Shown here in pieces: positions 1-47,107 of a stretch of DNA of 64,000 bases. Source of the stretch: Ramlibacter sp. PS4R-6 (GTDB lineage Bacteria; Pseudomonadota; Gammaproteobacteria; Burkholderiales; Burkholderiaceae_C); the NCBI RefSeq assembly GCF_037572775.1, contig NZ_JBBHKA010000001.1:1736001-1800000 (forward strand), written 5' to 3'. The notes beneath the pieces were generated by a model. It worked only from the letters and a program-made list of their open reading frames with translations. It had not been told where the DNA came from and ran no database searches. The position numbers and the translations under genes are program-made. The first letter of the stretch is position 1; every line of letters starts with the position of its first letter.

Positions 1-3000
1 CGAGACACCCGGCTCGGACATCATCGAGAAGTGCGAACCGCCCACCTCGGTGACGCGGATGGCGCCGTGCACGTGCTGCTCCCAGCCCAGCGTGCGGCCG
101 GCCGCGAGGTACTGCATCTCGGCCTCGGTGGCGCGGAACAGCACGACGTCGCCGTCGTAGGCCGCCGGCGTGTAGCGCGATTGCGCCTCGACGAAGTTGC
201 GGAACAGGTGGTGCTCGACCAGTTCCGGCGGCAGCGGCTCGCCGCGTGCGAGGCGTTCGAGCGCCTGCGCGTATTCGTTGTCGCCCTGCTTGCCCTTGCG
301 GCGGCGCTCGCGCCAGTCCATCACGAAGGCCCAGGACCAGTGCCGCGCCAGCCAGAGCTTCTTCCACGCCGGCACCGGCGTGCGCGCCGCGACCGGCGCC
401 AGCGTGTCGATCATCGCCAGCAGCGTCACCTGCGCGCCGTCACGCTTGAGCTGCTGCGCCATCTCCAGCGCGATCACGCCGCCCGCGGAATACCCCGCCA
501 ACTGGTACGGCCCACGCGGCTGCACCGTGCGGATCGCCTCGACGTACTGCCTCGCCATCTCCTCGACCGACTTCAGCGGCTGCAGGCGGCCGTCCACGCC
601 TTGCGCCTGCAGGCCGTAGAAGGGCTGGTCCGCGCCGAGGCGGTCGGAGATGACCTTGAAGTTGAGCACGTTGCCGCCCGCGCCGTGCACGCAGAAGAGC
701 GGCGCGCGCTCGGCGCTGCCCTTGCAGATGGCCACCAGCGGCGACCATGAGCGCGTGACCAGCGGGATCACGTTGGACTTGCGCGTGGGTTCCGCCGACG
801 CCAGCGGGATGTTCGCGTGCTGTGCCACCAGCGCGGCCAGCGCGCCCAGCGTCGGCGCCTGGAACAGCGTGGCCAGCGGCAGGTCCACGCTGTATTGCTT
901 GCGGATGCGCGCGAACAGGCGCACCGCAGCCAGCGAATGCCCGCCGAGCGCGAAGAAGTCGTCGTCGGGCGCCACGTCGTCCACGCCGAGCAGCTCGCGC
1001 CAGACGTCGGCCAGCAGGGCTTCGACCGGGTTGAGCGTGCTTGCCGATGCAGACGCGGAAGCCTTGGCGCGCGCCTGCGGCTTGGGCGTGGCTTGCGCGA
1101 GCACGCGCGCCAGCGCATCGAGGTCGATCGACGATACGACGAGGTCGCGCGCGCCGCCGCCGAGGATGCGTTCGAACAGGGCCGGCGCGTCCTCGCCGCG
1201 GATGCCGCAGGCGAGCATCAGGTCGGTCAGGCTCGCTTCGCGCTGCGCGGCGTGGCTGGACACGGCCTCCGGTTGCACGGGCCGCAGCGAGAAACCTTCG
1301 AAGGTCGCCAGCGGCTTGCCGGTTTCGGTCGACAGTGCGACGTCGAAGGTGGCGAGCCGTTCACCGGCGGCGCTGCGCAGCTTCACGGTGCTCGCGATGC
1401 GCGGCGGCAGCGGGGCGGCGATGCGGATGCGGTCGACCGACAGCGGCACGAAAAGCTGCCCGGCGCGCTTGTTGGCGTCCAGCAGGTGCAGGCCGAAGGT
1501 CGCGGCCATGTCGGTCAGCGCGGGGTGCACGGCCCAGGTGCGCACGTCGTCGTGGAAATTCGGCGCGAGCTCCAGGTGCGCCTGCGCGCGGCCCGTGCCC
1601 AGCTGCATGCGCGTGAGGTTGCGCCAGCGCTCGCCGAAGTCGACGGCGCCGTCCTGCGGGATCACGCCCGGCTGCCAGCCGGTGGCGGGCACGCTCGCGC
1701 CGTGCGCCAGCTCGCCGAGGAACACGGCGGTGGTGGCGTGCGCATGCTCCAGCCATTCGCCGCTGGTGGCGGCGCGGCTGCGCACGGTGAATTCGTACGC
1801 CGTGCCGGTGCGGCGCAACTCCGTTCGCACGACGCGCGTCTCGCCCGGCTCGAACACCATCGCCTCCTCGAAGGACAGCGAGCGGATCTCGACGGCGGCG
1901 CGCGGGTGCAGCGCCATCATCGCGGCGCGGGCGATCTCGATGTAGGCCGTGCCCGGCAGCACCGCGCGGCCGCCGACGCGGTGTTCGCGCAGCACCCACA
2001 GCTTGTTGCTGTCGTAGGCGGCCTCGAAGGTGGCGCCGCCTTCGCTGTCCACCTGCACACCCAATAGCGGGTGCGAAGCCAGGCCCGCCTCGGCGGCGAC
2101 CTCGTGGCCGTAGGCGCGCGCGGCCATGCCGCGGTCGCCCCAGATACCCCAGCGGATCGCCAGGCCGTCGTCGCGCGACGCGGCCAGCGCGTCCAGGAAG
2201 GCATTCGCGGCCACGTAGTCCACCTGCCCCGCGCCGCCCAGCAGGACGCTGGTGGAGGAGAACACGGCGAACACGTCGAGGTCGCCGGGCGGCAGCAGTT
2301 CGTGCAGCACCTGCGCGCCGGCCGCCTTCGCGCCGATCACGCGTTCGATGCTCTCGGGCGTCTTGGTGGCGATGGGCGCGTCTTCCAGCACCCCGGCCGC
2401 ATGGAACACGCCGTTGATCGTGCCGAAGCGCGCGCGGCACTCGCCGATCACGCGCGTCATGGCGCGGCGGTCGGCGACGTCGGCGGACAGCGCCAGCACT
2501 TGCGCGCCTTGTGCTTCGAGCGCGAGCAGGCGGCGCACCAGGCGCACGTCGCGGGAATGGTCGCCGCTGGCGGCCAGGGCCGGCCAGCTGGCGCGCGGGG
2601 GCAGCGCGCGGCGGCCGACGAGGGCCAGTCGCGCCTTCTTCTCTTTTGCGAGCCACGCGGCGAGGTCGAGCCCGATGTCGCCGAAGCCGCCGGTGATGAG
2701 GTACACACCTCGTTCGCGCACGAGGGCCTGGCCCGCCGGTTGCGGCGCGGCGCCGAGCTGCTGCGCGAATCGTTCGCCGCCCCGGTAGGCGACGAGGTCG
2801 GGGCCTTGCGGCTGCACCGCTTCGCGCACGATGGCGGCGGCTGCGCCGGAGGGGTTCAGTTCGGACTGCGCGAAGTCGATGAGGCGCGCGGTGACCTGCG
2901 GCAGCTCGCGCGGGATCACGCGGCACGGGCCGATGGCGAGCGCGCGCTCGGCATGCGGCACGGCCTCGCCGCGCACGGACACCGTGCCCGCGCTCACCAC

Positions 3001-6000
3001 GATGAGCTGCAGGGCATGCGACACGTCGGCTTCCTGCAGCGCGCGCGCGAGGTGCACGAGGCTGTCGAAGGCCAGTGCGCGGTCGCCGGCCTGCGCATGC
3101 ACGGCGCCGGGGACCGTCTCCAGCGCCCACAGGTGCACGATGCGTGCCGGCAGGCGCTGCTGCTCTTCGAGCATGCGCAGCAGCTGCGTGTAGGGGTCGG
3201 CCTGCGCCGGCGCCATGGTGAAGCTGCCGTCACGGAAGGCCTCGAAGGCTTCGCCGCGGCGCACGAGCGTCACGCGGGCACGCGCCGCCGCGGCTTGCGC
3301 GACGACCTCTTCGGTCAGCTGCGCATCGGTGCCGAAGACCAGCCAGTCCTCGCCGTCCTTCGCGGTGGCGGCGGCCAGCGGCGAGGGTGTCCATTGCGGC
3401 ACGCGGAACCAGTCGGCGGGCGCGGGCAAGCGCTCCAGCGCGGGGCGCTTGGCCACGGGCGCTGCGGGTTGCGCGGCTTCCGTCGTGCGGATGCCGGGCT
3501 CGATCCAGTAGCGCTGGTGGTCGAAGGCGTACGTGGGCAGCGGCGTGCGGCGGGGTTTGCCCGGGCCGCGCAGCGCCTGCCAGTCGGGCGCGAGGCCGCG
3601 CGTCCACAGCGCGCCGGCCGAGGTGAGCATGAGCGCGAGGTCGGCATTCGGCTCCTGCGCCTTGCAGGTGGAGGCCAGCACCATGCGCTGCGCGCCCAGC
3701 TGGTTCTGACGTGCGAGCGCCGACAGGCCCTGGCCGGGCCCGACCTCGATGAGGATGGCGTCGGGCATGTCCTTCACCAGCGACAAGCCATCGGCGAAGC
3801 GCACCGGCTGGCGCAGGTGGCGCACCCAGTACTCGGGGTCGGCGATGAGCTGCGCATCGGCCCAGCCGCCCGTCACGTTGGAGATGAAAGGCAGTTGCGG
3901 CGCGGCGAAGCGCATGCGCGCGACGCGCTCGCGGAAGCTGCCCAGCACGCCGTCGAGCAGGCGCGAATGCGCGGCCACGTCGATGTGCAGGCGGCGCGGC
4001 TCCAGGCCACGCTCCTTGAGTTTCGCCTCCAGTTGCGCGATGGCGTCCAGCGAGCCGGACGCGATGCACAGGTCGGGCGCGTTGACGGCGGCCACGTCCA
4101 GCGGCAGGCCTTCCATCGCCGCGCGCAGCTCCGCTTCGTCGAGGTCGACCGAGAGCATGGCACCTGCGGGTGCCTGCTCGAACAGCTGCCCGCGCAAGGT
4201 CACGATGGCCAGCGCGTCGGCCAGCGACATCGCGCCCGCCAGGCAGGCGGCCGCGTACTCACCGGCGCTGTGGCCGACGACGGCCGCGGGCTTCACGCCC
4301 CAGCTCGCCCACAGCTTCGCGATGGCGTATTCGAGGATGAAGAGCGCGGGGATGGCGTAGCGGGGCTTTTGCAGCGTGCGCGCCGCCTGCTCGTCGCCCA
4401 GCGCGAACATGACGGTGCGCAGGTCGGCCGGCGCATCGGCCGGCAGCTGCGCGAAGCACTCGTCCACCGCTGTCGCGAAGGCCGGCTGCGACAGCAGCTC
4501 GCGCCCCGCGCCGGGGTAGTGCGCGCCGCCGCCGGGGAACATGAAGACCACGCGCGGCGTGTCGCTGCCCGCTTTCGAGACCACGCTGCGCGCATGCGAC
4601 TTGGCCTGCAGCACGGCGCGCAGCTCGTCCACGTCCCTCGCGACGGCGACCATGCGGTGCTCGAACTCGCGGCGCCCGGCTTGCAGCGTGTACGCCGCGT
4701 CGGCCAGGTCGAAGCCGGGCGGCGGCCCGGCGAGGAACTCGACCCACTTCGCCTTCAGCCCGTCCAGCGAGGAGGGCGTGCGGGCGGAGAAGGTGAAGAC
4801 CTGCGGTTGGTCCAGGCTCGTGCGCGTCGCCTTCGCGATCGGCGACTCCTCGACGATCACGTGCGCGTTGGTGCCGCCCACGCCCAGTGAGTTGACGCCG
4901 GCGCGGCGCGGCGTCGCACCGCGCTCCCAGGGCTTGGCCTGCGCCATCACCTGGAACGGCGTCTGCTCGATGCCCATGCGTGAGTTCGCGCGCGAGAAAT
5001 TCAGCGACGGCGGGATCAGCCCGTGCCGCATCGCCAGCACCACCTTGATCAGCGACGCCGTTCCGGCGGCCGTGTCCAGGTGGCCGATGTTGGTCTTGAT
5101 CGAGCCGATGCCGCAGAAGCCCTTGCCGCCGGCGCCGTACGCCTGCGAGAGGGCTGCGATCTCGATGGGGTCGCCCACCGGTGTGCCTGTGCCGTGCGCC
5201 TCGACGTAGCTGACCGTGCCCGGCTCGACGCCTGCGACAGCGAGCGCCTCGGCGGCGGCCGCGGCCTGCCCGTCGACGCTGGGCGCGAGGTAACCCGCCT
5301 TGCCGTAGCCGTCGTTGTTGACGGCCGAGCCGCGGATCAGCGCGTAGATGTTGTCGCCGTCGCGCAGCGCGTCTTCCGCGCGGCGCAGCACGACCACGGC
5401 GGCGCCGCTGCCAAAAATCGTGCCTTGCGCTTCATCGTCGAACGCGCGGCAATGCCCGTCGGGCGAGAGGATCTCGCCTTCGGCATAGCGGTAGCCCTGG
5501 CGGTGCGGCAGGTCGATGCTCACGCCGCCGGCCAGCGCCATGTCGCATTCGCCGGACAGCAGGCTCTGCGCCGCCACGTGCACGGCGACCAGCGAGGTCG
5601 AGCACGCCGTCTGCACCGACATGCTCGGCCCCTTCAGGTCGAGCAGGTACGACACGCGCGTGCACAGGAAGTCCTTGTCGTTGCCGGTATGCCGCAGCAG
5701 GAACAGGCCCATGGACTTCACCAGCTGCGGGTTCGTCAGCAGGTTGTAGCTCATGTACGCCTGCATGCCGCAGCCGCCGAACACGCCGATGGAGCCGCCG
5801 AATTTCTCGGGCGCGTGGCCCGCATCCTCCAGAGCTTCCCAGCAGCACTCGAGGAAGTGGCGGTGCTGCGGGTCGAGCACCGCGGCGTCCTTCTTCGAGA
5901 AGCCGAAGAAGTCGGCGTCGAACATTTCCATGTCCGGCAGCACCAGCGACGCCTTCACGTAATTGGGGTCGGCGAGCTCGGCGTCGGCCACGCCGTTCGC

Positions 6001-6153
6001 GCGCAGCTCGTCGTCGGTGAGCCATTGCGCGGCTTCCTTGCCGCCCGCGAGCAGGCGCCACAGTTCGGCCGGCGTGCGCGCGGAGGGGAAGCGGCCGGCG
6101 ATGCCGACGATGGCGATGCTGCCGGGCTCGACGCTGGACTTCTCGTCGTTCAT
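1..6153 (-). CDS. Type I polyketide synthase module KS-AT-KR-DH-ACP-TE (3' end outside window)
   Basis: 2051 residues are visible from ATG at 6153 (SD-like GAGGTG just upstream); the frame is still open at base 1, probably only tens of residues short of the end. Domains in order: ketosynthase about 10-430 (Cys184 in TACSTS, later HGTGT and NIGH motifs); acyltransferase about 540-850 (GHSAG, Ser629); structural linker; ketoreductase about 1145-1340 (GGFGDIG; DYVAAN gives Tyr and Asn); dehydratase double hot-dog about 1355-1620 (His1391 in HxxxGxxxxP, Asp1548 in HPALTD); ACP (Ser1740 in GGHS); thioesterase (Ser1889 in GYSAGG, His2041 in GSHF). All key residues are present, so it should extend an acyl chain by one unit, reduce and dehydrate it, and release it. 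The AT xAxH position reads VAAH, so malonyl or methylmalonyl choice cannot be called. DH after KR is unusual. It starts 7 bp after the NRPS gene and presumably accepts its product. Confidence 0.93.
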   Translation of the reverse strand, partial: MNDEKSSVEPGSIAIVGIAGRFPSARTPAELWRLLAGGKEAAQWLTDDELRANGVADAELADPNYVKASLVLPDMEMFDADFFGFSKKDAAVLDPQHRHFLECCWEALEDAGHAPEKFGGSIGVFGGCGMQAYMSYNLLTNPQLVKSMGLFLLRHTGNDKDFLCTRVSYLLDLKGPSMSVQTACSTSLVAVHVAAQSLLSGECDMALAGGVSIDLPHRQGYRYAEGEILSPDGHCRAFDDEAQGTIFGSGAAVVVLRRAEDALRDGDNIYALIRGSAVNNDGYGKAGYLAPSVDGQAAAAAEALAVAGVEPGTVSYVEAHGTGTPVGDPIEIAALSQAYGAGGKGFCGIGSIKTNIGHLDTAAGTASLIKVVLAMRHGLIPPSLNFSRANSRMGIEQTPFQVMAQAKPWERGATPRRAGVNSLGVGGTNAHVIVEESPIAKATRTSLDQPQVFTFSARTPSSLDGLKAKWVEFLAGPPPGFDLADAAYTLQAGRREFEHRMVAVARDVDELRAVLQAKSHARSVVSKAGSDTPRVVFMFPGGGAHYPGAGRELLSQPAFATAVDECFAQLPADAPADLRTVMFALGDEQAARTLQKPRYAIPALFILEYAIAKLWASWGVKPAAVVGHSAGEYAAACLAGAMSLADALAIVTLRGQLFEQAPAGAMLSVDLDEAELRAAMEGLPLDVAAVNAPDLCIASGSLDAIAQLEAKLKERGLEPRRLHIDVAAHSRLLDGVLGSFRERVARMRFAAPQLPFISNVTGGWADAQLIADPEYWVRHLRQPVRFADGLSLVKDMPDAILIEVGPGQGLSALARQNQLGAQRMVLASTCKAQEPNADLALMLTSAGALWTRGLAPDWQALRGPGKPRRTPLPTYAFDHQRYWIEPGIRTTEAAQPAAPVAKRPALERLPAPADWFRVPQWTPSPLAAATAKDGEDWLVFGTDAQLTEEVVAQAAAARARVTLVRRGEAFEAFRDGSFTMAPAQADPYTQLLRMLEEQQRLPARIVHLWALETVPGAVHAQAGDRALAFDSLVHLARALQEADVSHALQLIVVSAGTVSVRGEAVPHAERALAIGPCRVIPRELPQVTARLIDFAQSELNPSGAAAAIVREAVQPQGPDLVAYRGGERFAQQLGAAPQPAGQALVRERGVYLITGGFGDIGLDLAAWLAKEKKARLALVGRRALPPRASWPALAASGDHSRDVRLVRRLLALEAQGAQVLALSADVADRRAMTRVIGECRARFGTINGVFHAAGVLEDAPIATKTPESIERVIGAKAAGAQVLHELLPPGDLDVFAVFSSTSVLLGGAGQVDYVAANAFLDALAASRDDGLAIRWGIWGDRGMAARAYGHEVAAEAGLASHPLLGVQVDSEGGATFEAAYDSNKLWVLREHRVGGRAVLPGTAYIEIARAAMMALHPRAAVEIRSLSFEEAMVFEPGETRVVRTELRRTGTAYEFTVRSRAATSGEWLEHAHATTAVFLGELAHGASVPATGWQPGVIPQDGAVDFGERWRNLTRMQLGTGRAQAHLELAPNFHDDVRTWAVHPALTDMAATFGLHLLDANKRAGQLFVPLSVDRIRIAAPLPPRIASTVKLRSAAGERLATFDVALSTETGKPLATFEGFSLRPVQPEAVSSHAAQREASLTDLMLACGIRGEDAPALFERILGGGARDLVVSSIDLDALARVLAQATPKPQARAKASASASASTLNPVEALLADVWRELLGVDDVAPDDDFFALGGHSLAAVRLFARIRKQYSVDLPLATLFQAPTLGALAALVAQHANIPLASAEPTRKSNVIPLVTRSWSPLVAICKGSAERAPLFCVHGAGGNVLNFKVISDRLGADQPFYGLQAQGVDGRLQPLKSVEEMARQYVEAIRTVQPRGPYQLAGYSAGGVIALEMAQQLKRDGAQVTLLAMIDTLAPVAARTPVPAWKKLWLARHWSWAFVMDWRERRRKGKQGDNEYAQALERLARGEPLPPELVEHHLFRNFVEAQSRYTPAAYDGDVVLFRATEAEMQYLAAGRTLGWEQHVHGAIRVTEVGGSHFSMMSEPGVS

Positions 6154-6160
6154 GGGCACC

Positions 6161-9100
6161 TCATGCCGGTGTGTTGGCGCCGGCGGCGCGCGATCGCATC
6201 ATCCGGCGCGCCTGCGCACGGGCCAGGCCATCGTTGACCGCATGGGCCTGCGGCTCGCCGCCGCCCAGGTGGGCCGCCAGCGCCTTGATCGTGGGCAGCC
6301 GGAACATGTCGGTGATCGACACCTCGCGCCCGCACGCTTCGCGCAGGCGCCGCTGCACCTGCACGACCAGGAGCGAATGGCCGCCCAGGTCGAAGAAGTT
6401 GTCGGTGGTGCCCACCTGCGGCAGGCCCAGCACGTCTTGCCAGATGGCGGCAATCGTCTTTTCCAGCTCGCTGTTGGGCGTGCTGGTCGTCGGCGGCAGC
6501 ACGGCGATGACCGCGTTCGGTTCGGGCAGGGCCTTGCGGTCCACCTTGCCGTTGGGCGTGCTGGGGAAGGCGGGCAGCACCAGCACGGCCTGCGGCACCA
6601 TGATCTCGGGCAGCTCCTTCGCGATGCCCGCGCGCAGCGCATCGGCTTCGAGCCGCGCGTTCGCCTGCGCCGTGACATAGCCGAGCAGCCGCTTCTCGCC
6701 CGAGGCGTCGTCGCGCGCGATCACGACCGCGTCCTTCACGCCCGGGAGTTTCGCGAGCACGCTCTCGATCTCGCCGAGCTCGATGCGGTGGCCGCGGATC
6801 TTCACCTGGTGGTCGATGCGGCCGAGGAAGTCGATCGTGCCGTCGGCGCGGAAGCGCACCAGGTCGCCGGTGCGATACCAGCGCGCACCTTGTTCATCCG
6901 TGACGAAACGCTCGGCGGTGAGCTCGGGGCGCCCGTGGTAGCCACGGGTCACGCCGTCGCCGCCGATCCAGAGTTCGCCGGGAACGAGCGCCGGGCAGTC
7001 GTGGCCGCCGGCGTTCACCACGCGCAGCTGCGTGTTGGCGATGGGCGTGCCCAGCGGCACGAAGTCGCCCACTTCCTTCAGCTCGCACGTGGTCGACCAG
7101 ATGGTCGTTTCCGTCGGGCCGTACATGTTGATCAACTGGCCGGGCACCAGCGCGCGCAGGTCCTTCGCCAGTTTCAGCGGCAAGGCTTCGCCGCCGACCA
7201 TGAGCGCCTGGAGCTTGGAGAGCGCCGCGCGGCCGGGTGCGTCGGCGACCAGCATCGAGGCCATCGATGGCGTGCACTGCAGGTGCGTGACGTCGCGCGC
7301 CAGCACCTGCTCGGCCGCCGAGACGCGCTGCGTCGCCGGCTGCATCTCGCGCGCGGCGTCCATCAGCGCCTTCAGGTGCTGCAGGTGGTCCAGCACGGTT
7401 TGCGTCGCGATGCCGAAGTCGACCAGGCAGGCGATCTCGTCCACGCCCGCGTCGCGCAGCTTGCCGACCATCGCCAGGCAGCGCTCCTGCGTGCCGAAGA
7501 GGGCGCTGGTGCCGTAGTAGCGGTTGAAGGCGTGCTCCAGCAGCGCGTCGGTCTCTTCCTCGGTCAGCGGCGCCTGCTCCATGATCTCGACGGGGTTCTT
7601 GCCGTCCTGCGCCGCGCGCTGCACGAAGGTGGGGAAGGACCACGCGGCCTGGCGGATCAGGTCCACCGAGCTGCGCAGGTAGTCCTTCATCGGCTTGCGC
7701 ACCGTCTCGCGCACGGTGTCGTCGTCGTCGCCGACGAAGGTGTGCAGCATCAGCGTCACGTGCGGCTTGCCGGCGTGGCCGGCCTTGTGCCACGCGGCAC
7801 GGTACAGCTTGAGCTTCTCGGCGACGTCCTCGATCTTCTGGCCGAGCAGGTGCGTGAGCAGGTGGCAGCCGAGCGTGCCCGCCTGTTCGAACGTTTCCGG
7901 GTTACCGGCGGCCGTCACCCAAACGGGCAACTCTTTCTGGATCGGGCGCGGCAGCGCCTGCACCTCGACGTCCTTGCCGTTCGGGCCGGGGAAGGGTAGC
8001 TTCTCGCCGCGCCACAGGCGCCGCACCACGTCGATGTTGCGCAGCATCGCGTTCTTGCGGTCGGCGAAGGCGTCGGGCGCGATCACGAAGTCGTTGGGCT
8101 GCCAGCCCGAGGCGAACGAGATGCCGACGCGGCCTTGCGAGATGTTGTCGACGAAGGCCCACTCTTCCGCGACGCGGATCGGGTGGTGCAGCGGCAGCAC
8201 GCAGCTGCCGGCGCGGATCTGGATGCGCGAGGTGCAGGCCGCGATGGCCGCGCTCGTCACCGCGGGATTGGGGTAAAGGCCGCCGAACGCGTGGAAGTGC
8301 CGTTCGGGTGTCCACACGGCCGAGAAGCCGTTGGCGTCGCCGAACTTCGCGCCTTCCATCAGCACGCGGTAGCGGTCCTGGGCGGTAGAGGCGTGGTCGC
8401 TCGCGAAGTAGAACAGGCTGAACTCGGGCGCCTTCGCCTCGGCCTTCACGGTGTTGGAGTGCAGCACCACGGTGAAGCCGCGCGCAAGCGTCCAGCACAG
8501 CTCCAGCACGGAGATGTCGAACGACAGGCTGGTCACCGCCAGCCAGCGGCCGGGCGGATCGTGAGCGATGCGCGGGTCCATGCCCGCGAAGAAGTTCATC
8601 ACGTTGCGGTGCGTGACCACGACGCCCTTGGGCTTGCCGGTCGAGCCGGAGGTGTAGATCACGTAGGCCGCGCGGGACGGGTCGGCCTTCGGCAGCGGTT
8701 GCGTGGATTCGCCCGGCAGCGACGCGAGCGTGCCTTCGGTGATCACGAGCTTCGTGCCCGAGTCCTCGACCATGAAATCGAGCCGGTCGCGCGGGTACTC
8801 GGGGTCGAGCGGCAGGTAGGCGGCGCCGGCCTTCAGGATGGCCTGCTGCGCGATGAGCAACTCGGCGCTGCGGTGCAGGCACAGGCCGACGATGTCACCG
8901 GGCTGAACGCCCGCGGCGACGAGGCGCCGTGCGAGCGAGGTCGAGCGTTCGTCGAATTCGCGGTACGTCAGTTGTGCGCCGTGGAACTCGACGGCGATGC
9001 GGTCGGGCGTGCGTTGCGCCTGCGCGGCGATCGCTTCGTGCACCCCGGTGCCCGACTCGAATTCGCGGGCGGTCTCGTTCAGGGCCGCGATGCGTTCGCG

Positions 9101-10552
9101 CTCGTCGTCGGGCAGCAAGGTGCCCACGTCGAGCCAGTGCGACAGCTGGCGCGCCATGCAAGCCACGGTCTCGCGCGCCAAAGCGGGCCCCGCGACGAGT
9201 TCCATGCGTTCGCCGTGCAGCGACAGCATCAGGTCGGTGTGCGGCGGCAGGTCGCTGCGGCCGTCCAGCGCGACGGCGATGCGGATGGTGTCCAGGACCG
9301 GATGCTTCTCGCCCAGGCGCGCGGGCAGGTCGCGCGGGTAGGGGCCGGCGACGCGCACCTGCGCGAAGTCGCCGTCGAAGGGCACCACGTCCTGCAGCCA
9401 GGGCTCGAGGCCCCGCGCGGCTTGCGCGATCGCCGGATCGCACAGCAGGACCGTCACGCGCTCCTGCGCGCACAAGGCGCGCAGCCAATCGATGAAAGCC
9501 TGCGCCGTGCGTTCGCCGTCGGCGCCGGCGTCCAGCGCGACACGCGTCACTTCCGTGCCCGCCAGCTCGCGCGGGTAGGGCAGTTCGACCGGCGCCAGGT
9601 GCGTGAGCGCCGCCGCCCAGTGGCGTTCGCCGCGTGCGAGGGCCGGCAGGGCTGCGGCGATGCGATCGCGCAATGCGGCGTCGAGCAGGGGCAGCTGCTT
9701 CGGCAGGTCGCGCACGGGTTCGGCCAGCGTCAGGACGACGTCGCCCGCGGCGGTGGCCACCGTCACCGAGCGGTCCTGCGCCTGCACGACGGTGCCGGGC
9801 GCCGCATGCGACGCCGCCTGGTCGACCTGCGCGTCGCGCACGAGCACCGTGCGCTCGCCCACCAGCAGCTTCGGCCTGGCCAGCGGGTTGGCATACGTGC
9901 CGAAGTCCAGCGCCTTCACCAGCGCGACGATCTCGCGCGCGGTCTTCGTGAAATCGAGGGTCGCGAGCGTGTCGGGACGCTTGTCGCGGCCGAAGTACGT
10001 CCGCTCGCCGGCTTGCGCGGTCAGCTCGAGCTCGCCGCGTGCGGCGTCGGCGGCGATCTGCGCGAAGGCGGCCAGGCCGGCCTCGTAGCAGCGGGCGTTC
10101 AGTTCCAGCGAGGTCTCGCCGGCGGTGACGGGGAACATCGCCTGCTTCACGATGCGGCCGGCGTCCACGCGCGCCGTCATCTCGTGCCACGTGATGCCGT
10201 GCTGGCTCTCGCCATTCAGCAGCGCCCACACCGGCGCGTTCAGGCCCGCGTAGCGGGGCAGCGGGCCGTCGTGGAAATTGACCGCCAGCTTCGCCGGCAG
10301 CCGCAGGAACGTTTCCGGCAGGACCTCGAGGTTCGCGACGCTGAAGAGGTAGTCGCAAGCCACGTCCGGGGCCTGCAAGGCTTCGCCGGCGGCGAACTGG
10401 CGGTGCGCGATGCCCGCGTCGCGGGCCCAGTGCGCGATCTCCGCGTTGCGCGTCACGACATGCGCGACGCAGTGCCCGGCATCGAGCCAGGCTTGCGCGC
10501 AGCGCACCAGGAGAGTCCCGTCTCCCACGAAAACAGCACCCGTACTGCTCAT
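6161..10552 (-). CDS. NRPS loading protein: formyltransferase - adenylation with inserted luciferase-like monooxygenase - PCP
   Basis: 1463 residues. Residues 1-300 form a methionyl-tRNA formyltransferase-like domain with the triad Asn92, His94, Asp130 intact. Residues about 310-500 look like a decayed condensation-type tail with no HHxxxDG. The adenylation domain starts near 505, with A3 ([11 protein letters not shown]) near 630 and A4 (SFDISVLE) near 690. A luciferase-like flavin monooxygenase occupies about 705-1060. Adenylation then resumes with A5 (NMYGPTETT, near 1140), A7 (YRTGDLVR), A8 and A10 (NGKVDRKAL). A PCP ends the protein (GGHS near 1391). Formyl loading domains are known from LgrA (linear gramicidin), and A4/A5 monooxygenase insertions from MtaG/MelG (myxothiazol/melithiazol). 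I infer a starter unit made by N-formylating and oxidising an amino acid on the PCP before handover to the PKS. The substrate cannot be read reliably. Confidence 0.93.
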
Positions 10553-10596
10553 CTCTCTCAGTGCCTTTCAGTCACGCAGGTCACGCCTCGGCCATG

Positions 10597-11328
10597 TTAG
10601 GCAGCGAAGAATCGTTCGTGGGCCGCGTGCGCCCTGCTCAGTTGGTTGATGTCACTGGCCGAGCCACAGTTCGTGCGTTTCAGCACGAAGTCGGGGTCGG
10701 CCGGCGCGCGCAGCACCACGGCCAGCGCGCAGTCGTCGTACGCATGCACCACCGCGCCGCGGCCGGCGCACAGCCCGTTGCTGCGCTCCAGGTGCACGTC
10801 GAAGCGGCTCGCGTTGCGCGGCATGCACAGGATGCGCGGGTTCGCGTCGACGAGGCCCGTGCCGCAGGCCTTCCAGAAGGCCTCCAGCGCGGTCCAGTGG
10901 AAGAAGAAGGCCTTGGTCGTCACCGGCTGCGGCGCGATCACGAAGGCGCCCAGCAGCCCGGCGTCGATCGGCCGCGATTCGATGCATTCCACGTCCACGC
11001 CGATGGGCGCGGTGCGCGTCACGGCGCACGCCACGGCGGTGCGCGTGCGCGACAGGCTCACGTGCAGGTCGGGGTGGCGCGCGATGAAAGGCATGCCGCG
11101 CGTGTCGTGGCGCAGCTCGATCTCCGCCGCGTCGACCTCGCAGTCGTTCGCGACCAGCGCGCGCAGCAAGGCGTGCACGACGGCGAAGGCGCGGCGGTCC
11201 GCTTCGAAGCGCAGGCGGCGCATCGCTTCGCGTTCCTCCTCGGACAGCAGGCGCTCGATGGCCTCGATGTCGCGATGCGCGAACTCCGTGGGGCGCGCGC
11301 AGGCCAGGTGGACTTCAGGCGCGTGCAT
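10597..11328 (-). CDS. Sfp-type 4'-phosphopantetheinyl transferase
   Basis: 243 residues, normal for Sfp-like enzymes, which transfer phosphopantetheine from CoA to carrier-protein serines. The Mg-binding motif GVDVE is present (Asp112, Glu114). The downstream WxxKExxxxK motif reads WTALEAFWK: Trp145, Glu149 and Lys153 are kept, but the first lysine is Leu148. It lies 44 bp upstream of the NRPS gene, so its natural clients are very likely the PCP and ACP encoded next door. Its start overlaps the end of the 84-residue gene by 14 bp, suggesting translational coupling. The Lys-to-Leu change is the only sign that activity might be altered. Confidence 0.88.
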   Translation of the reverse strand: MHAPEVHLACARPTEFAHRDIEAIERLLSEEEREAMRRLRFEADRRAFAVVHALLRALVANDCEVDAAEIELRHDTRGMPFIARHPDLHVSLSRTRTAVACAVTRTAPIGVDVECIESRPIDAGLLGAFVIAPQPVTTKAFFFHWTALEAFWKACGTGLVDANPRILCMPRNASRFDVHLERSNGLCAGRGAVVHAYDDCALAVVLRAPADPDFVLKRTNCGSASDINQLSRAHAAHERFFAA

Positions 11329-11569
11329 GGCTTTCCGCCCGCGCGTTGCGGTGCGCGCGGTCGAACTCCGAGAATCGGCGCGCGTTCAGGCGGCGCCAGG
11401 CATCGTTGGTGCGGCTGATGGCCTCGGACCAGGCCTTCCAGGCGCGGATGCGCTCGGGCGAGCCGGGTGCGTGCGAATGCAGCTCCTGCCAGGCGTGTCG
11501 TTCACGGTCGACCGATTCGGTGTATGCCGCGGCCAGTGGGTCGTCGTGTGATGTGCGGTGCTCGTCCAT
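11315..11569 (-). CDS. Small unknown protein, first gene of the NRPS/PKS operon
   Basis: 84 residues, no signal peptide or membrane segment. It is charged and rich in His, Arg, Trp and Ala, with a probable helical stretch (AWKAWSEAISRTNDAWRRL). I do not recognise a family. It overlaps the phosphopantetheinyl transferase gene by 14 bp and is the promoter-proximal gene of the biosynthetic operon, so a helper or regulatory role is possible, but nothing in the sequence proves one. The start ATG at 11569 has only a weak Shine-Dalgarno sequence. Confidence 0.7.
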   Translation of the reverse strand: MDEHRTSHDDPLAAAYTESVDRERHAWQELHSHAPGSPERIRAWKAWSEAISRTNDAWRRLNARRFSEFDRAHRNARAESHARA

Positions 11570-11692: not shown

Positions 11693-12721
11693 TCATTCGA
11701 GCAACGCGCGGCGGATCGGCTCGATCCAGCTGTTGGTCTTCGTCGAGAAAGCGCCGAAGTCCGAACCGAAATTCCAGTAGGTCCAGCCGATGCCGCGCTT
11801 CTCGGCCTCGTCGCGCACGATGCGCGCGTACTCGGCGCGCATCTTCAGGTCGACCTTCTCGTAGGTGCCGAACTCGCCCAGGTGCACCGGGTAGCCGCTT
11901 TGCTGGTTCCAGCGGATCGCCATGTCCAGCGCGTTCGAGATCTGCGCGCGGTCCTTCGGGCTGCAGCAGGTGGGGCCCATGGGGAACTGCGGCATCCACT
12001 CCATGCCCTGGTGCGTGAAGGGGAAGGGGTCGTAGTTGTGGATCGCGACGATGACGTTGCGGTCGCGCGGCACCCGCAGCTTCGGCAGCTCGGGGATGGC
12101 GTTCCATTCGCCGGGGCCGATCAGCACCGTGCGGGTGGGGTTCGTGGCGCGCACGACTGACAGCACTTGCGCGGCCAGCTGGTTCCAGGGCTCGCCGTTC
12201 AGGCGCCCGTGCGGCTCGTTCAGCAGCTCGAAGAGCAGCTTCGGCGGCTTGTCCTTGTAGCGCGCGGCGATCTGCTTCCACAGGTTCACCAGGCGCTGCT
12301 CCAGCACCGCGGGGTCGACCTCGAACTCGTTGGGGTGCTGCTTGTCGCCCGACAGCTGCGTGTAGTGGTGCACGTCGACGATGACGTACATCCCCTTGGC
12401 GAGGAACGCGTCGATCACCTGGTCGACGCGTTTGGCGAATTCCTCGTCGATGGTGGCGTCGGCCGTCTTGGCGGCGTGGTTGCTCCAGCGCACCGGCACG
12501 CGCACCGTCTTGAAGGGGCCCGCGACGAGGTCGGCATACGCGGGGTCCCACTTCATGCCCCAGTCGCCTTCGCGGGGCGCGTCGAGCATGTTCCCCATGT
12601 TGATGCCGCGGCCCAGCGACTTGGCGACGGCGCAGGTTTCGGGGCTGACGGCCGCGCACGATTGCGCGGCTTGCGCGGCGCCGGCGGCGAGGAACAGGAG
12701 CAGGGCGATGTACTTGTGCAT
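11693..12721 (-). CDS. Secreted glycoside hydrolase family 5 endoglucanase
   Basis: 342 residues from the ATG at 12721, chosen because it opens a clean signal peptide (MHKYIALLLFLAAGAAQAAQ); the frame extends upstream but that part looks like leader. The mature part is a GH5 TIM barrel with the acid/base Glu169 in LLNEPHG and the nucleophile Glu283 in LGEFGTY, plus the conserved HNYDPF segment. GH5 enzymes hydrolyse beta-1,4-glucans and related polymers with retention. It diverges from epsA and the exopolysaccharide genes, so it may trim or release the polymer made next door rather than degrade plant cellulose; that is inference from position. Confidence 0.88.
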   Translation of the reverse strand: MHKYIALLLFLAAGAAQAAQSCAAVSPETCAVAKSLGRGINMGNMLDAPREGDWGMKWDPAYADLVAGPFKTVRVPVRWSNHAAKTADATIDEEFAKRVDQVIDAFLAKGMYVIVDVHHYTQLSGDKQHPNEFEVDPAVLEQRLVNLWKQIAARYKDKPPKLLFELLNEPHGRLNGEPWNQLAAQVLSVVRATNPTRTVLIGPGEWNAIPELPKLRVPRDRNVIVAIHNYDPFPFTHQGMEWMPQFPMGPTCCSPKDRAQISNALDMAIRWNQQSGYPVHLGEFGTYEKVDLKMRAEYARIVRDEAEKRGIGWTYWNFGSDFGAFSTKTNSWIEPIRRALLE

Positions 12722-13059: not shown

Positions 13060-13851
13060 ATGAGCGCGATCGCAACGAGAACACAAGCCGACCCTGCCCA
13101 CTTCCTCAAGATCGCGAGCGATGGCGCCGGGCTCGCGACGCACGAACAACTGTGGCGGTGGCTCCAGGGCGACGTGCAGCAGTGGCTGTCGCACGAGGTC
13201 ATGTTGATCGGCTGGGGCGACTTCCGCACCGGCGACCTGCAGTACGACATCGTCTCCAGCCTCCCCGGCATGCGTTCGCACGACTGGACCGTGGCCGGCA
13301 TCGCCCCCATCATCAGCTACTTCCGCGATTGCTGGGCGGCCGCGCAGCACCTGCCCACGCAGCTCGATGCGAGCGTGTGCGCGCAGCTGGTGCGCGGCGC
13401 CGGCGAAGGCGCGGCGCCCGACGCGCTGCGCACGATGAAGACGGCGCTGGTGCACGGCATCCGCCGCTCGCGCCACGGCTCCGAGCGCGTGTTCGTCGCC
13501 TTGAGCCGCGAATCCGAACTGCCCACCGCCGCGCCCATGTCGCTCAAGCTGCTGCTGCCCTTCATGGACACGGCCTTGCGCCAGATGCCGCCCGCGCCGG
13601 TGCGCCAGGCGCCTTGCTCGCGTTTCGACATCCAGCACCGCCACGCCGCGCGTGTTCCCACCCTGTCCGAGCGCGAGCGCCAGATCATGGTCTGGGTCGC
13701 GATGGGCAAGACCAACCCCGAGATCGGAATGATCCTGGACATCAGCGAATTCACGGTGAAGAACCACATGAAGAGCATCTTCAGCAAACTCGACGTCACG
13801 AACCGCGCCCAAGCGGTCGCCAAGCTGGAGCGGATGCATGCCCATGCATGA
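13060..13851 (+). CDS. epsA: LuxR-family transcriptional regulator EpsA (exopolysaccharide)
   Basis: 263 residues from ATG 13060 (SD GGGGAA); the upstream in-frame extension covers the promoter and is rejected. The N-terminal 190 residues are the EpsA-type sensory region without a recognisable ligand motif. The C-terminal 60 form a LuxR/FixJ helix-turn-helix (LSERERQIMVWVAMGKTNPE, then FTVKNHMKSIFSKLDV). It matches the regulator that heads XrtB/PEP-CTERM-linked eps clusters. It overlaps the sugar-transferase gene by 14 bp and so starts the operon it probably controls. Confidence 0.85.
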   Translation: MSAIATRTQADPAHFLKIASDGAGLATHEQLWRWLQGDVQQWLSHEVMLIGWGDFRTGDLQYDIVSSLPGMRSHDWTVAGIAPIISYFRDCWAAAQHLPTQLDASVCAQLVRGAGEGAAPDALRTMKTALVHGIRRSRHGSERVFVALSRESELPTAAPMSLKLLLPFMDTALRQMPPAPVRQAPCSRFDIQHRHAARVPTLSERERQIMVWVAMGKTNPEIGMILDISEFTVKNHMKSIFSKLDVTNRAQAVAKLERMHAHA

Positions 13852-15277
13852 GGCCAAGCCGGCAATGGGCGCGCTGAACGTTCCGCCGCCCCCTCCCTCC
13901 GCGGTCGCCGCCACGGCGCTCGCCCAGAACCGCCTGCTGCTCGCGCTCGAGGCCATCCTCGAGCCGCTCATCACGGTCCTGACGCTGTGGTTCCTGGTGC
14001 TGCTGATGGAAGGCGAGCTCGACTCCAAGTGGCTCGTCGCCTCCATCGTCGCGTTCGCCCTGTCGTTCCCCGGCAAGTCGCTGCTGCGCGCGCCGCCCGA
14101 TCGCGTGGCGGTGAACATCCTGCTCGCCTGGGGCTGGACGGCGGGGCTGATGCTCGCGCTCGGCTTCGCCACCGGGCACATCTACGATTTCTCCGCGCCC
14201 ATCGTCGTGCACTGGCTGTGGTTCACGCCCGCGACGCAGCTGGTCGCGCACTGGGCCCTGCGCCTGGCCGCGCCGCACCTGGTGCGCCTGCAAGGCCCGC
14301 CGCTGCGCGCGGTGGTGGTGGGCATGAACGAGCAGGGCTGCTCGCTCGCGGACCGCATCACCTCGCAGCCCTACGCGGGCATCGAGATGGTGGGCTTCTT
14401 CGACGACCGCACGCCCGACCGCATCTTCGGCCACGAGCGCCACCGCATGCTGGGGCGCATCTCCGAGATCGCGACGTTCGTGAAGCGCAACCGCGTCCAG
14501 CTCATCTACCTGTCGCTGCCCATGGCGTCGCAGCCGCGCATCAAGGAGCTGCTGGATGCGCTGAAGGACACCACGGCCTCCGTCTACTTCGTGCCCGACA
14601 TGTTCGTGACCGACCTGATCCAGGGCAAGACCGACGCGGTCTGCGGCCTGCCGGTGATCTCCGTGTGCGAGACGCCGTTCCGCGGGCCGGCGGGCGTGCT
14701 CAAGCGCATCGAGGACATCGTGCTCGCTTCGCTGATCCTGGTGCTGATCTCGCCGATCCTCGCGGCCATCGCGCTGGCCGTGAAGTTCACGTCGCCGGGC
14801 CCGGTGATCTTCCGCCAGCGCCGCTACGGCCTCGATGGCGAGGAGATCCTGGTCTACAAGTTCCGCTCCATGCGCGTCACCGAGGACGGCGACAAGATCG
14901 TGCAGGCCCGCAAGGATGACGACCGGATCACGCCGCTCGGCCGCATCCTGCGCAAGACCTCTATGGATGAGCTGCCGCAATTCATCAATGTGCTGCAGGG
15001 ACGGATGAGCATCGTCGGCCCGCGCCCGCATGCGGTCGCGCACAACGAAATGTATCGCGGCCTGATCAAGAGCTACATGGTCCGGCACAAGGTCAAGCCC
15101 GGCATCACGGGCTGGGCGCAGGTCAACGGTTTCCGGGGAGAAACCGAGTCCCTCGACAAGATGGAAGGGCGGATCCGCTGCGACCTCGACTACCTGCGCA
15201 ACTGGTCGCTACGGCTCGATCTGTACATCATCGCGCGCACGGTGAGACTCGTTTTCAAGGATGCTTCTGCGTATTGA
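13838..15277 (+). CDS. Polyprenyl glycosylphosphotransferase starting EPS repeat synthesis (EpsB/WcaJ type)
   Basis: 479 residues. The N-terminal half has four to five membrane segments, then a Rossmann-like CoA-binding_3 domain (VVVGMNEQG, FFDDRTPDR). The C-terminal bacterial sugar transferase domain carries IFRQRRYGLDG, KFRSM, KTSMDELPQFINVL, GPRPHA and KPGITGWAQVNGFRGET. The enzyme moves a hexose-1-phosphate, usually glucose, to undecaprenyl phosphate at the inner membrane. Another in-frame ATG six bases downstream (13844) is possible. Second gene of the eps operon. Confidence 0.92.
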   Translation: MPMHEAKPAMGALNVPPPPPSAVAATALAQNRLLLALEAILEPLITVLTLWFLVLLMEGELDSKWLVASIVAFALSFPGKSLLRAPPDRVAVNILLAWGWTAGLMLALGFATGHIYDFSAPIVVHWLWFTPATQLVAHWALRLAAPHLVRLQGPPLRAVVVGMNEQGCSLADRITSQPYAGIEMVGFFDDRTPDRIFGHERHRMLGRISEIATFVKRNRVQLIYLSLPMASQPRIKELLDALKDTTASVYFVPDMFVTDLIQGKTDAVCGLPVISVCETPFRGPAGVLKRIEDIVLASLILVLISPILAAIALAVKFTSPGPVIFRQRRYGLDGEEILVYKFRSMRVTEDGDKIVQARKDDDRITPLGRILRKTSMDELPQFINVLQGRMSIVGPRPHAVAHNEMYRGLIKSYMVRHKVKPGITGWAQVNGFRGETESLDKMEGRIRCDLDYLRNWSLRLDLYIIARTVRLVFKDASAY

Positions 15278-15346
15278 TGAGGCTATAGTGCAACCGGACC
15301 ATTGCGACTGATCGCTGGTTTCGTGAACATCAACCGGAGAAGCAAC

Positions 15347-16540
15347 GTGCAAAAGAAACTTTCCATCCGCAACGCGCTAACGCTCGCATCGATCATTATG
15401 GCCTCCCCCGCCGTCATGGCCCAGATGGCCCGCGTCGTCGACACGAACCAGGAAGGCCTGCACTTCCAGGGCCGGCTGGGCGCGGAACACGACAGCAACG
15501 TGCTGCGCGTGGGGTCCGGCGCCGAATCCGACACCGCGTACACCGCGGGCGTGGGCCTGACGTACAACAAGCAGTTCAGCCTGCAGCGCATCCGCGCCAA
15601 CATCCAGGCCGATGCGTGGCGCTACAGCGACCACTCCGAGCTGAACTTCAACACGATCAACTACGGCCTGGCCTGGGACTGGAGCATCACGCCCCGCCTG
15701 CACGGCACCGTCAGCGCCGACCGCAAGCAGTTCCGCGAAGTGACGACCGACCCGGTGACGTTCACCAACCGCATCGGCCGGCGCACCGAGCGCAACGAGC
15801 TCGCCGAAGGCGCGTTCGACATCGCCGGCCCGTGGCGCGTGATGGCGGGCGTGTCGCACTACCGCACGTCCAGCACCGAGCCCTTCAGCTGGGACGCCAG
15901 CCCCGACATCACCTACGGCCAGGTGGGCGTGGGCTACCAGGCGGCATCGGGCTCGTCCTTCGCGCTGCGCTACAAGCGCGGCAAGGGCGAATACAAGGAC
16001 GCGAGCTTCGGCACGCTGAACACCGACTTCGACGACGACGAGATCGAGGCCACGGCCCGCTGGTCGGTCACCGGCAAGACGACGATCGACGCGCGCCTGG
16101 CGCACGTCAAGCGCGACCACGACAACGCGCCCGTGCTCGACTTCAGCGGCATGGTCGGCGGCATCAGCGCCACCTGGGACATCACCGGCAAGACCAGCCT
16201 GGTCGCCGGCTACCAGCACGACCTGAGCGCCACGGGCCTCGTCACCGGCGGCAAGGTGGAAAGCGACCGCTTCTTCCTCGCGCCCGTGTGGCACGCCACC
16301 GCCAAGACCTCGTTCAACCTGCGCTACGACTACACGCAGCGCAAGTGGAAGGACACCGGCGCCGCCATCGCGTTCGCGAACCGCACCGAGAAGATCGAGG
16401 CCATCCAGGCCGGGGTCGACTGGGAGGCGCTGCGCACCATCACCGTATCGGGCTATATCCGCCAGGAAAAGCTGCGGTCCTCGGTCAACGCCGGCTACCG
16501 CGCCAACGTCTTCGGCGTGCTGGCCCGCGCCAACTTCTGA
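15347..16540 (+). CDS. epsL: EpsL-type outer-membrane protein of EPS biosynthesis
   Basis: 397 residues from GTG 15347, preferred over the ATG at 15302 because GGAGA lies 6 bases upstream and a signal peptide follows directly (ending in SPAVMAQ). The mature protein is a string of alternating amphipathic beta strands ending in Phe, as expected of an outer-membrane barrel, and resembles the XrtB/PEP-CTERM-associated EpsL family. It may provide the outer-membrane exit together with EpsE. A 69-bp gap follows the sugar-transferase gene. Confidence 0.82.
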   Translation: MQKKLSIRNALTLASIIMASPAVMAQMARVVDTNQEGLHFQGRLGAEHDSNVLRVGSGAESDTAYTAGVGLTYNKQFSLQRIRANIQADAWRYSDHSELNFNTINYGLAWDWSITPRLHGTVSADRKQFREVTTDPVTFTNRIGRRTERNELAEGAFDIAGPWRVMAGVSHYRTSSTEPFSWDASPDITYGQVGVGYQAASGSSFALRYKRGKGEYKDASFGTLNTDFDDDEIEATARWSVTGKTTIDARLAHVKRDHDNAPVLDFSGMVGGISATWDITGKTSLVAGYQHDLSATGLVTGGKVESDRFFLAPVWHATAKTSFNLRYDYTQRKWKDTGAAIAFANRTEKIEAIQAGVDWEALRTITVSGYIRQEKLRSSVNAGYRANVFGVLARANF

Positions 16541-16566
16541 CATCCAACCGTTAGGGAGATTCCAAC

Positions 16567-17382
16567 ATGATGTCCAAGCTGCTTCGCTCCACGATAGGGA
16601 TCGCCACCCTGGCCCTCGCGGCCGGCATCGCGTCGGCGCAGCAGGACGCGAACAAGCCGGGCGACTACCGCCTGTCGCCCGGCGACTCGATCAAGGTCCA
16701 GGTCTACCAGAACCCGGAGCTCTCGTTCGAGGTGCGCATTTCCGAAAGCGGCGTCGTGAACTACCCGCTGGTCGGTCCCGTCCAGCTGGGCGGCTTGTCG
16801 GTCAGCCAGGCCGAACAGGCGATCGCGAAGGCGCTGCAGAAGGAAAACATCCTGAAGGCTCCCCAGGTGAACATCAACGTCGCGCAGGTGCGCGGCAGCC
16901 AGGTGGCCGTGCTGGGCGAGGTGGGCAGGCCCGGCCGCTTCCCGCTGGAGACGACCAACGTGCGCGTGAGCGAGATCATCGCGGCCGCCGGCGGCGTCAC
17001 GCCCAACGGCGACGACCGCGTGGTCGTCACCGGCCAGCGCAACGGCCAGCCCTTCCGCAAGGAAGTGGACGTGCAGGCGCTCTTCGCGGGGCGCAGCACC
17101 GACGACGTGGTCCTGCAGGCCGGCGACACCATCTTCGTGTCGAAGGCCCCCACGTTCTACATCTCGGGCGAGGCCCAGAAGCCCGGCACCTACAAGATCG
17201 AGCGCGGCATGACCGTGCAGCAGGCGATCGCCGCCGGCGGCGGCATCACCAACCGCGGCAGCATGGGCCGCATCCGCATCACGCGCACGCAGCCCGACGG
17301 CCAGAAGGTCACGATGGACCCGCGCCTGTCGGACGTCGTGCAGGCGGGCGACGTCATCGTCGTGCGCGAAAGCATTTTCTAA
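16567..17382 (+). CDS. epsE: Polysaccharide export protein EpsE (Wza-like, SLBB domains)
   Basis: 271 residues with a signal peptide (ASAQQ). A poly-export domain starts with YRLSPGDSIKVQVYQNPELS, followed by SLBB repeats (VAVLGEVGRPGRFPL; FYISGEAQKPGTYKIE). No lipobox is visible. The family forms the periplasmic/outer-membrane export conduit for capsular and exopolysaccharides. It lies between epsL and the chain-length gene, with SD-like GGGAGA upstream. Confidence 0.92.
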   Translation: MMSKLLRSTIGIATLALAAGIASAQQDANKPGDYRLSPGDSIKVQVYQNPELSFEVRISESGVVNYPLVGPVQLGGLSVSQAEQAIAKALQKENILKAPQVNINVAQVRGSQVAVLGEVGRPGRFPLETTNVRVSEIIAAAGGVTPNGDDRVVVTGQRNGQPFRKEVDVQALFAGRSTDDVVLQAGDTIFVSKAPTFYISGEAQKPGTYKIERGMTVQQAIAAGGGITNRGSMGRIRITRTQPDGQKVTMDPRLSDVVQAGDVIVVRESIF

Positions 17383-17413
17383 ATCTCACAAGCAGTCCAG
17401 GGGGAAATTCGGC

Positions 17414-18802: not shown

Positions 18803-19773
18803 CCAGCAGCACCAGCACGCAGATCTACCCGCTGCCCAACCGCACGGACCTCACCGAGCTCGACATCGAGCTGCCGACGCGCGAAGCCGCGCAGCCCATC
18901 GGCGCGATCCTGGTGCAGGCCGGCGCGCTGCAGCAGGGCGACGTGCAGCGCATCCTGGATTACCAGAAGAAGTCGGGCTTGCTCTTCGGCGAGGCCGGCA
19001 TCGCGATGGGCCTGCTCGACGAGGAAGACGTCAAGCGCGCGCTCGCGCTGCAGTTCGGCCATGCCTACTTCGCGCCCGACACGGCCGGCTTCGGCGAGGA
19101 ACTGATCGCCGCGACCGACCCCGACAGCGACGCCGTGGAACACCTGCGCGTGCTGCGCAGCCAGCTGATGCTGCGCTGGTTCGAGAACGACGCGCGCCAG
19201 GCCGCGCTGGCGGTGGTGAGCCCCGGCGTGGGCGAAGGCCGCAGCTACATCACGGCCAACCTCGCGGTGCTGTTCTCGCAGCTGGGCAAGCGCACGCTGC
19301 TCATCGACGCCGACCTGCGCCGCCCGCGCCAGCACGAAATCTTCAACCTGCAGACGCGCGTGGGCCTGTCCACCGTTCTCTCCGGCCGCGCCGGCTGGGA
19401 AGCGGTGCACGAGATCAAGTCGCTGCCGGGCCTGTGGGTGCTGCCCGCGGGCGCCGCGCCGCCGAACCCGCAGGAGCTGCTGTCGCGCCCGGGCTTTGCC
19501 CGCCTGATCCAGGCGCTGCGCGCGAGCTACGAGGTGATCCTCGTGGACACGCCCGCCGGCACGATGTGGGCCGATGCCGGCACGGTGGCCGCCCGCTGCG
19601 GCGCCGCGCTGATGCTGGCCTGCCGCGACGCCACCTCGGTGCCGCGCGTCGCGCACCTGGCCGACGACCTGCGCCAGTTCGGCGTGACGATCGTCGGCGC
19701 CGTGCTCAACGGCGCGCAACCTGACAAACCGGAGCGCGTGGCGCCCAACACCGCGGCGCGCCTGAGGGCATGA
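18799..19773 (+). CDS. epsG: EpsG-type BY-kinase-like ATPase of the EPS co-polymerase
   Basis: 324 residues. Residues about 30-95 resemble the MshEN/GspE N-terminal fold. The rest is a MinD/BY-kinase P-loop ATPase with Walker A' (LLIDADLRRPRQ) and Walker B (VILVDTPAG). The Walker A region reads GVGEGRS, with Arg where GK[ST] has Lys, as I recall for other EpsG proteins. No C-terminal tyrosine cluster is present, so classical autophosphorylation is doubtful. It overlaps epsF and the next gene by 4 bp each. Confidence 0.88.
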   Translation: MTSSTSTQIYPLPNRTDLTELDIELPTREAAQPIGAILVQAGALQQGDVQRILDYQKKSGLLFGEAGIAMGLLDEEDVKRALALQFGHAYFAPDTAGFGEELIAATDPDSDAVEHLRVLRSQLMLRWFENDARQAALAVVSPGVGEGRSYITANLAVLFSQLGKRTLLIDADLRRPRQHEIFNLQTRVGLSTVLSGRAGWEAVHEIKSLPGLWVLPAGAAPPNPQELLSRPGFARLIQALRASYEVILVDTPAGTMWADAGTVAARCGAALMLACRDATSVPRVAHLADDLRQFGVTIVGAVLNGAQPDKPERVAPNTAARLRA

Positions 19774-20552: not shown

Positions 20553-20566
20553 CCTAATATCCCGGC

Positions 20567-47099: not shown

Positions 47100-47107
47100 T
47101 TCGGGGT

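Follow-up and report, generated by a model that had tools for sequence, protein, structure and literature searches.

Organisation of the locus

A formyltransferase-bearing non-ribosomal peptide synthetase (NRPS) paired with a single-module polyketide synthase (PKS) in Ramlibacter sp. PS4R-6 raises the question of what so short an assembly line makes, and whether its product stands alone or serves a neighbouring pathway. The window, by which we mean the whole stretch of 64,000 nucleotides analysed here (contig NZ_JBBHKA010000001.1, positions 1,736,001 to 1,800,000), encodes a phosphopantetheinyl transferase (PPTase; 11328-10597), the NRPS (10552-6161) and the PKS (6153 to -122) consecutively on the minus strand, with 7 bases separating the NRPS stop codon from the PKS ATG:

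10597..11328, minus strand: PPTase, 243 aa, the operon's first gene (Pfam AASDHPPT_N and ACPS; motifs GVDVE and WTxLEAFWK)
6161..10552, minus strand: NRPS loading protein, 1463 aa, modelled as F-dC-A[LLM]-PCP (Pfam/NCBIfam)
1..6153, minus strand: PKS, KS-AT-KR-DH-ACP-TE, extending outside the window to -122 (Pfam domains)

Flanking DNA places the end of the PKS 122 bp left of base 1, giving a full length of 2091 aa. Its left neighbour is a biotinyl/carboxyltransferase gene, with an apparent RND efflux set farther left. The original prediction had allowed that further modules just left of base 1 could make this part of a larger line; there are none, and since the PKS terminates at -122 and is followed by the carboxyltransferase gene, the assembly line has no additional left module. 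The neighbouring protein, encoded directly downstream of the PKS (L003 17989-19791; window -2011 to -209), is a fusion of a biotinyl domain and a carboxyltransferase that was not found near related PKS genes. It was considered as a supplier of the extender unit and dropped, as the query matched none of the related loci and the gene does not adjoin the PKS in genome G199 or in Caenimonas. At the opposite end, a small ORF (11315-11569) has a weak coding signal and gave no match in the family search, so 11328 is a safer right edge than the 11569 first proposed.

The PPTase was originally described as the line's own. An ACPS match at the operon start (29.4 bits; Pfam cut-off 25) agrees with its presence, while its dedication to the pair is based on position, because the Ramlibacter genome carries four ACPS-family genes, this one included.

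Domain architecture of the NRPS

9698..10552, minus strand: F domain, formyltransferase with ArnA/FMT fold and triad N92, H94, D130 (Pfam Formyl_trans_N/C, structure model, residues)
9059..9685, minus strand: shortened condensation domain, C-terminal lobe only, without the HHxxxDG half (profile search and structure model)
8435..9055, minus strand: N-terminal part of the A domain, A1-A4 (Pfam, residues)
7364..8422, minus strand: luciferase-like FMN monooxygenase between A4 and A5, MupA/Atu3671 family (TIGR04020, 521 bits; PuwE 6ket, 378 bits)
6518..7330, minus strand: C-terminal part of the A domain, code DILQMGMIWK, glycine-like (Pfam, code read-out)
6233..6505, minus strand: PCP, GGHSLL (Pfam, residues)

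Pfam and NCBIfam models matched in the order Formyl_trans_N/C, AMP-binding (split by the monooxygenase), AMP-binding_C and PP-binding. This confirms the domain order first proposed for the NRPS, as the corresponding searches did for the PKS, with the addition of a partial condensation domain between F and A. The F domain spans residues 1-285, and its structure model (pLDDT 91) resembles ArnA and methionyl-tRNA formyltransferase with Z-scores of about 25, so that an Asn-His-Asp triad sits in a formyltransferase fold at the N-terminus of the loading module (ArnA Z 25).

The stretch that follows (residues 290-498) was assigned from two lines of evidence. A profile built from 18 relatives matches residues ∼197-462 of condensation domains (E 1.3e-13), and a structure model (pLDDT 92) retrieved only NRPS condensation or related domains among the 50 structure matches listed (Z 11.7-13.1). 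In the F-A linkers of the window and of four relatives, no condensation domain was recognised by Pfam. The protein is accordingly F-dC-A[LLM]-PCP, with the F domain taking the position at which a condensation domain would have its catalytic N-lobe.

Linear gramicidin synthetase LgrA likewise carries an N-terminal formyltransferase ahead of an A-PCP loading module, and LgrA chains are the top PDB matches of the whole NRPS. The likeness to LgrA that had been proposed for the F domain holds for its position and triad, whereas the domain itself is nearer to ArnA/FMT (64 bits) than to the LgrA F domain (6.7 bits). The architecture also differs from the F-A-PCP arrangement of LgrA: a condensation C-lobe separates F from A, so that the two are not fused directly, the A domain bears a monooxygenase, and a PKS comes next.

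That monooxygenase (residues 711-1063) covers positions 1-340 of the 341-position TIGR04020 model at 521 bits, against a cut-off of 244. Its insertion between A4 and A5 is borne out by the flanking motifs, SFDIS at 677 and MYGPTE at 1143. By this curated cut-off it belongs to the MupA/Atu3671 family, and PuwE (6ket) is its nearest PDB match; PuwE was solved as a 362-residue protein, whereas the enzyme here is built into an A domain. MtaG- and MelG-type A domains, also glycine-like, likewise have a monooxygenase inserted between A4 and A5; their modules come last in long assembly lines and release amides. Unlike those terminal amide-releasing modules, the A[monooxygenase] unit here is a first module, placed after F and paired with a PKS. 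The A-domain code, DILQMGMIWK, is one that we take to be glycine-type; its relatives have DILQ-x-GM[IV]WK, and every readable copy is glycine-like. Glycine is therefore the amino acid predicted to be loaded. Three of the genomes that carry the pair also encode, elsewhere, a stand-alone TIGR04020-like monooxygenase with about 50% identity to the inserted one (L047 7697-8815, L048 7380-8507 and L049 7836-8969).

Domain architecture of the PKS

4834..6129, minus strand: KS (Pfam)
3664..4566, minus strand: AT, GHSAG and VAAHS (Pfam, residues)
2119..2736, minus strand: KR, LED, B-type-like (Pfam, residues)
1234..2073, minus strand: DH (Pfam, residues)
814..1026, minus strand: ACP (Pfam, residues)
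1..711, minus strand: TE, final residues left of base 1 (Pfam, residues)

The PKS matches the Pfam families ketoacyl-synt, Acyl_transf_1, KR, PS-DH, PP-binding and Thioesterase. Residues expected for catalysis were found in the KS (C184, H320, H358), AT (GHSAG), KR (GGxGxxG and K/S/Y/N), DH (HxxxGxxxxP and D) and TE (GYSAG and His), together with the carrier serines of the ACP and PCP. All catalytic residues searched for are present in both synthases, as originally claimed, and they are nearly invariant across relatives. The protein qualifies as a type I modular reducing module with a TE, in which the second DH motif is atypical: D-x-x-x-T in the window and DxxxT/G in the set, versus the usual DxxxQ/H.

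The AT motif (VAAH/IAAH) fits neither the textbook malonyl nor the textbook methylmalonyl signature. A rival possibility is that the PKS acts iteratively or takes a branched extender, releasing a longer or alkylated amide instead of a C4 unit. In genome G213, the PKS is immediately followed by a crotonyl-CoA carboxylase/reductase gene (TIGR01751); in G119 a gene whose N-terminus is similar occupies the same position, and the ATs of both have the motif VAGH, which resembles that of ethylmalonyl ATs. In G213 this motif points to a different extender unit, as far as an AT signature can predict one. VAGH is found in only 4 of 75 ATs, the crotonyl-CoA carboxylase/reductase query matched none of the 80 loci scanned, and the single module per protein is constant over phyla, and we regard an iterative or branched-extender PKS as unlikely. 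The G213 locus (L040 855-8047) also encodes two apparent glycosyltransferases, an AurF-type diiron protein, a small ACP-like protein and an acyl-AMP ligase-like protein beside the pair.

Distribution and conservation of the pair

The combination of F domain, monooxygenase and PKS, for which no described product had originally been known, is widespread. Long NRPS matches occur in six genomes besides that of the window within a same-family sample of 251, and searching 84,980 species genomes with an F-domain alignment returned no fewer than 569 relatives. The 80 best loci were retrieved and compared: nearly all encode F-A-LLM-PCP, with a KS-AT-KR-DH-ACP-TE partner wherever the contig extends far enough, and 54 of the 80 have a PPTase in the locus. 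The pair was found in Comamonadaceae and other Burkholderiales, with Ramlibacter, Caenimonas, Polaromonas, Hydrogenophaga, Caldimonas and Rhizobacter among the hosts, as well as in many Rhodobacteraceae and in Anaerolineae, Acidobacteria and Planctomycetota. When one genome per genus was sampled in family f55 (the family of G373, presumably Rhodobacteraceae), 69 of 198 genomes had the pair, while a phylum-wide sample gave matches in 17 of 398 genomes, including two of ArnA-like background.

The F triad (N-H-D) and the PCP serine are jointly present in 78 of 84 proteins. Pairwise identities of NRPS and PKS are correlated over 75 loci (r 0.94, uncorrected for shared ancestry). The combination is an old, widespread unit rather than a rare one. 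Retention of the same two proteins over phyla argues that the pair is the entire line, which supports the original proposal of a near-complete two-protein system joining one amino acid to one ketide unit.

A search of the open-access literature found no paper on an F domain and a luciferase-like monooxygenase within one NRPS, and no described product. The fabrubactin pathway of Agrobacterium is a hybrid NRPS-PKS siderophore line whose flavin monooxygenase, FbnE, is proposed to make alpha-hydroxycarboxylates (PMC12971057). The likeness of FbnE to the inserted domain is one of description, and in the window locus no siderophore receptor, transporter or chelator genes were found among the subset of neighbours scanned against families.

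Association with polysaccharide loci

11693..12721, minus strand: GH5 glycoside hydrolase, a neighbour conserved in the Ramlibacter/Caenimonas type (families, locus comparison)
13060..21580, plus strand: XrtB-type exopolysaccharide (EPS) locus with LuxR, WcaJ-like phosphoglycosyltransferase, EpsL, EpsE, EpsF, EpsG, WecG and GalE-like genes (family searches)
43301..51940, minus strand: second half of the EPS locus with epimerase, GMC oxidoreductase, GT4, GT2, GT2, Wzy_C and Wzx genes (family searches)

The locus had been treated as a stand-alone secondary metabolite cluster, whereas most relatives compared lie in polysaccharide loci. In the window the pair is followed first by a GH5 gene and a LuxR regulator and then by an XrtB-type EPS locus; Caenimonas likewise has such an EPS locus next to the pair. 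The two EPS halves (13060-21580 and 43301-51940) are kept apart by about 22 kb of other genes, and a strong Wzx lies 40 kb from the pair. The two halves lie close to each other in Caenimonas soli (L188, L051), where they make up, with the NRPS-PKS, one stretch of about 40 kb, which suggests an insertion or rearrangement in the genome of the window. An Acyl_transf_3 membrane acyltransferase (52550-53716) adjoins the second EPS half and is a candidate for acyl transfer to sugar; among the relatives compared, the pair has no conserved neighbour that would serve as its dedicated acyltransferase.

Gene order in Rhodobacteraceae and Hydrogenophaga is PKS-GT2-NRPS-PPTase, and these loci are neighboured by Wzx, Wzz, sugar transferase, WecG and Wzy genes. 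A GT2 gene separates the two synthase genes wherever the PKS comes first, with one exception (52 of 53 loci), and in locus L091 there are 4-bp overlaps at both the GT2/NRPS and NRPS/PPTase junctions. A Phaeobacter locus (L116) has the PKS-GT2-NRPS order. A PKS, Inhi_1972, and an NRPS, Inhi_1974, have been reported in Phaeobacter inhibens T5, and no named product was found for them there (PMC4062626); this numbering leaves one gene between them and fits the same order, the likeness being one of numbering.

Of 30 genomes searched with the Pfam Wzx model (PF13440), 26 have a strong Wzx no more than about 25 kb from the pair, where 0.6 would be expected; for matches just beyond the retrieved loci, the same contig was confirmed from its length in seven cases and otherwise assumed from coordinates. 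Polysaccharide markers were found near 47 of 80 pair loci, whereas 20 ordinary NRPS loci and 20 random places had none. This comparison is partly circular, as the marker queries were drawn from the pair loci themselves; its controls were all in Burkholderiaceae, and its positive loci, mostly from Rhodobacteraceae, are not independent. In the NRPS tree, polysaccharide neighbours occur in three clades that differ in gene order. The linkage to Wzx, Wzy and glycosyltransferase genes is stable, yet it is missing in part of the window's own clade: no polysaccharide genes lie within reach in G199, L059, L063 or L057/L058/L061/L065 of that clade, or in Anaerolineae, where the line seems to work without them.

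Other genes recur around the pair. Two adjoining proteins of about 300 and 840 aa without Pfam matches (L091 15284-18756 and relatives) recur in 23 and 12 loci, respectively, next to Rhodobacteraceae clusters. In the Anaerolineae loci L078 and L083, the genes ahead of the pair encode proteins of about 840 aa that contain carrier and thioesterase-like parts, and L078 additionally has acyl-AMP ligase-like and acyl-CoA dehydrogenase-like genes, a setting unlike that of the polysaccharide loci.

The polysaccharide neighbours could instead reflect co-regulation or a shared surface life-style, in which case the line itself would release a small molecule that diffuses freely, such as a 4-formamido-butenolide or butenoic acid acting as a signal, antibiotic or metal ligand. 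A type I TE at the end of the PKS is consistent with such release, as are the isolated PPTase-NRPS-PKS or NRPS-PKS genes of G199, L059 and L063, the different biosynthetic partners at Anaerolineae loci, and the match to PuwE, since members of this monooxygenase family, MupA and PuwE among them, are known from metabolite pathways. The repeated Wzx/Wzy/glycosyltransferase linkage in three NRPS clades of differing gene order and the near-constant GT2 gene within PKS-first operons argue against it, and we consider a free metabolite possible but somewhat doubtful. RkpA and WcbR, PKS-like proteins of capsule loci thought to make lipid parts, provide a precedent for a PKS that serves a polysaccharide locus, but they work without an NRPS or formyltransferase.

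A proposed pathway

The reading that we prefer, and to which we give about an even chance, is that this dedicated, anciently conserved two-protein line makes one very small acyl unit that most likely modifies or builds a secreted polysaccharide or other glycoconjugate. Its observed basis is the set of domains and residues, the operon, its conservation and its genomic linkage, whereas the chemistry is predicted. Points against it are the relatives with no polysaccharide neighbours, the distance of the strong Wzx in the window's genome, the missing conserved acyltransferase, and the unusual DH and AT motifs. In the proposed pathway, the PPTase would arm both carrier domains and the A domain would load glycine onto the PCP. 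The F domain, from its predicted activity, would then transfer a formyl group from formyl-tetrahydrofolate to the glycine amine. TIGR04020 enzymes catalyse alpha-hydroxylation of carrier-bound acyl groups, and by analogy the inserted FMN enzyme would, probably at this stage, oxidise the alpha carbon of glycine to give an N-formyl carbinolamide. The formyl group would stabilise this carbinolamide and would also prevent cyclisation to a tetramate or lactam. Addition of one malonyl-type unit by the PKS (malonyl being the presumed extender), followed by reduction and dehydration, would leave 4-formamido-(4-hydroxy)-but-2-enoyl-S-ACP, from which the TE may free the C4 unit or pass it to an acceptor. 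A sugar is the best guess for this acceptor because the GT2 gene sits inside the operon; loci without polysaccharide genes leave room for a product that is released free, or for an acceptor pathway encoded at a distance.

The oxidised N-formylglycine might alternatively collapse to formamide and a glyoxylyl thioester, with loss of the formyl group and the nitrogen, so that the product would be a nitrogen-free C4 oxo-acid. Such a collapse has been proposed for the alpha-hydroxyglycine of myxothiazol-type pathways, and the luciferase-like monooxygenase lies here in a glycine-type A domain that is split at the same point as in MtaG/MelG. Invariance of the F residues in nearly all relatives would be puzzling if the formyl group were immediately discarded, and we consider this outcome very unlikely.

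A more specific form of the preferred polysaccharide reading is that the NRPS-PKS-made N-formyl carbinolamide C4 enoyl unit is a masked reactive aldehyde which, attached to sugars, would constitute a previously undescribed polysaccharide decoration or cross-link common in marine Rhodobacteraceae; taken as a whole, this proposal is rather unlikely. If the polysaccharide link is true, hundreds of apparent secondary metabolite clusters of NRPS/PKS type would belong instead to loci for surface polysaccharide. The pair is intact in roughly one in three sampled genera of one alphaproteobacterial family, as well as in members of at least three other phyla, and the small size of the predicted product makes the question directly testable.
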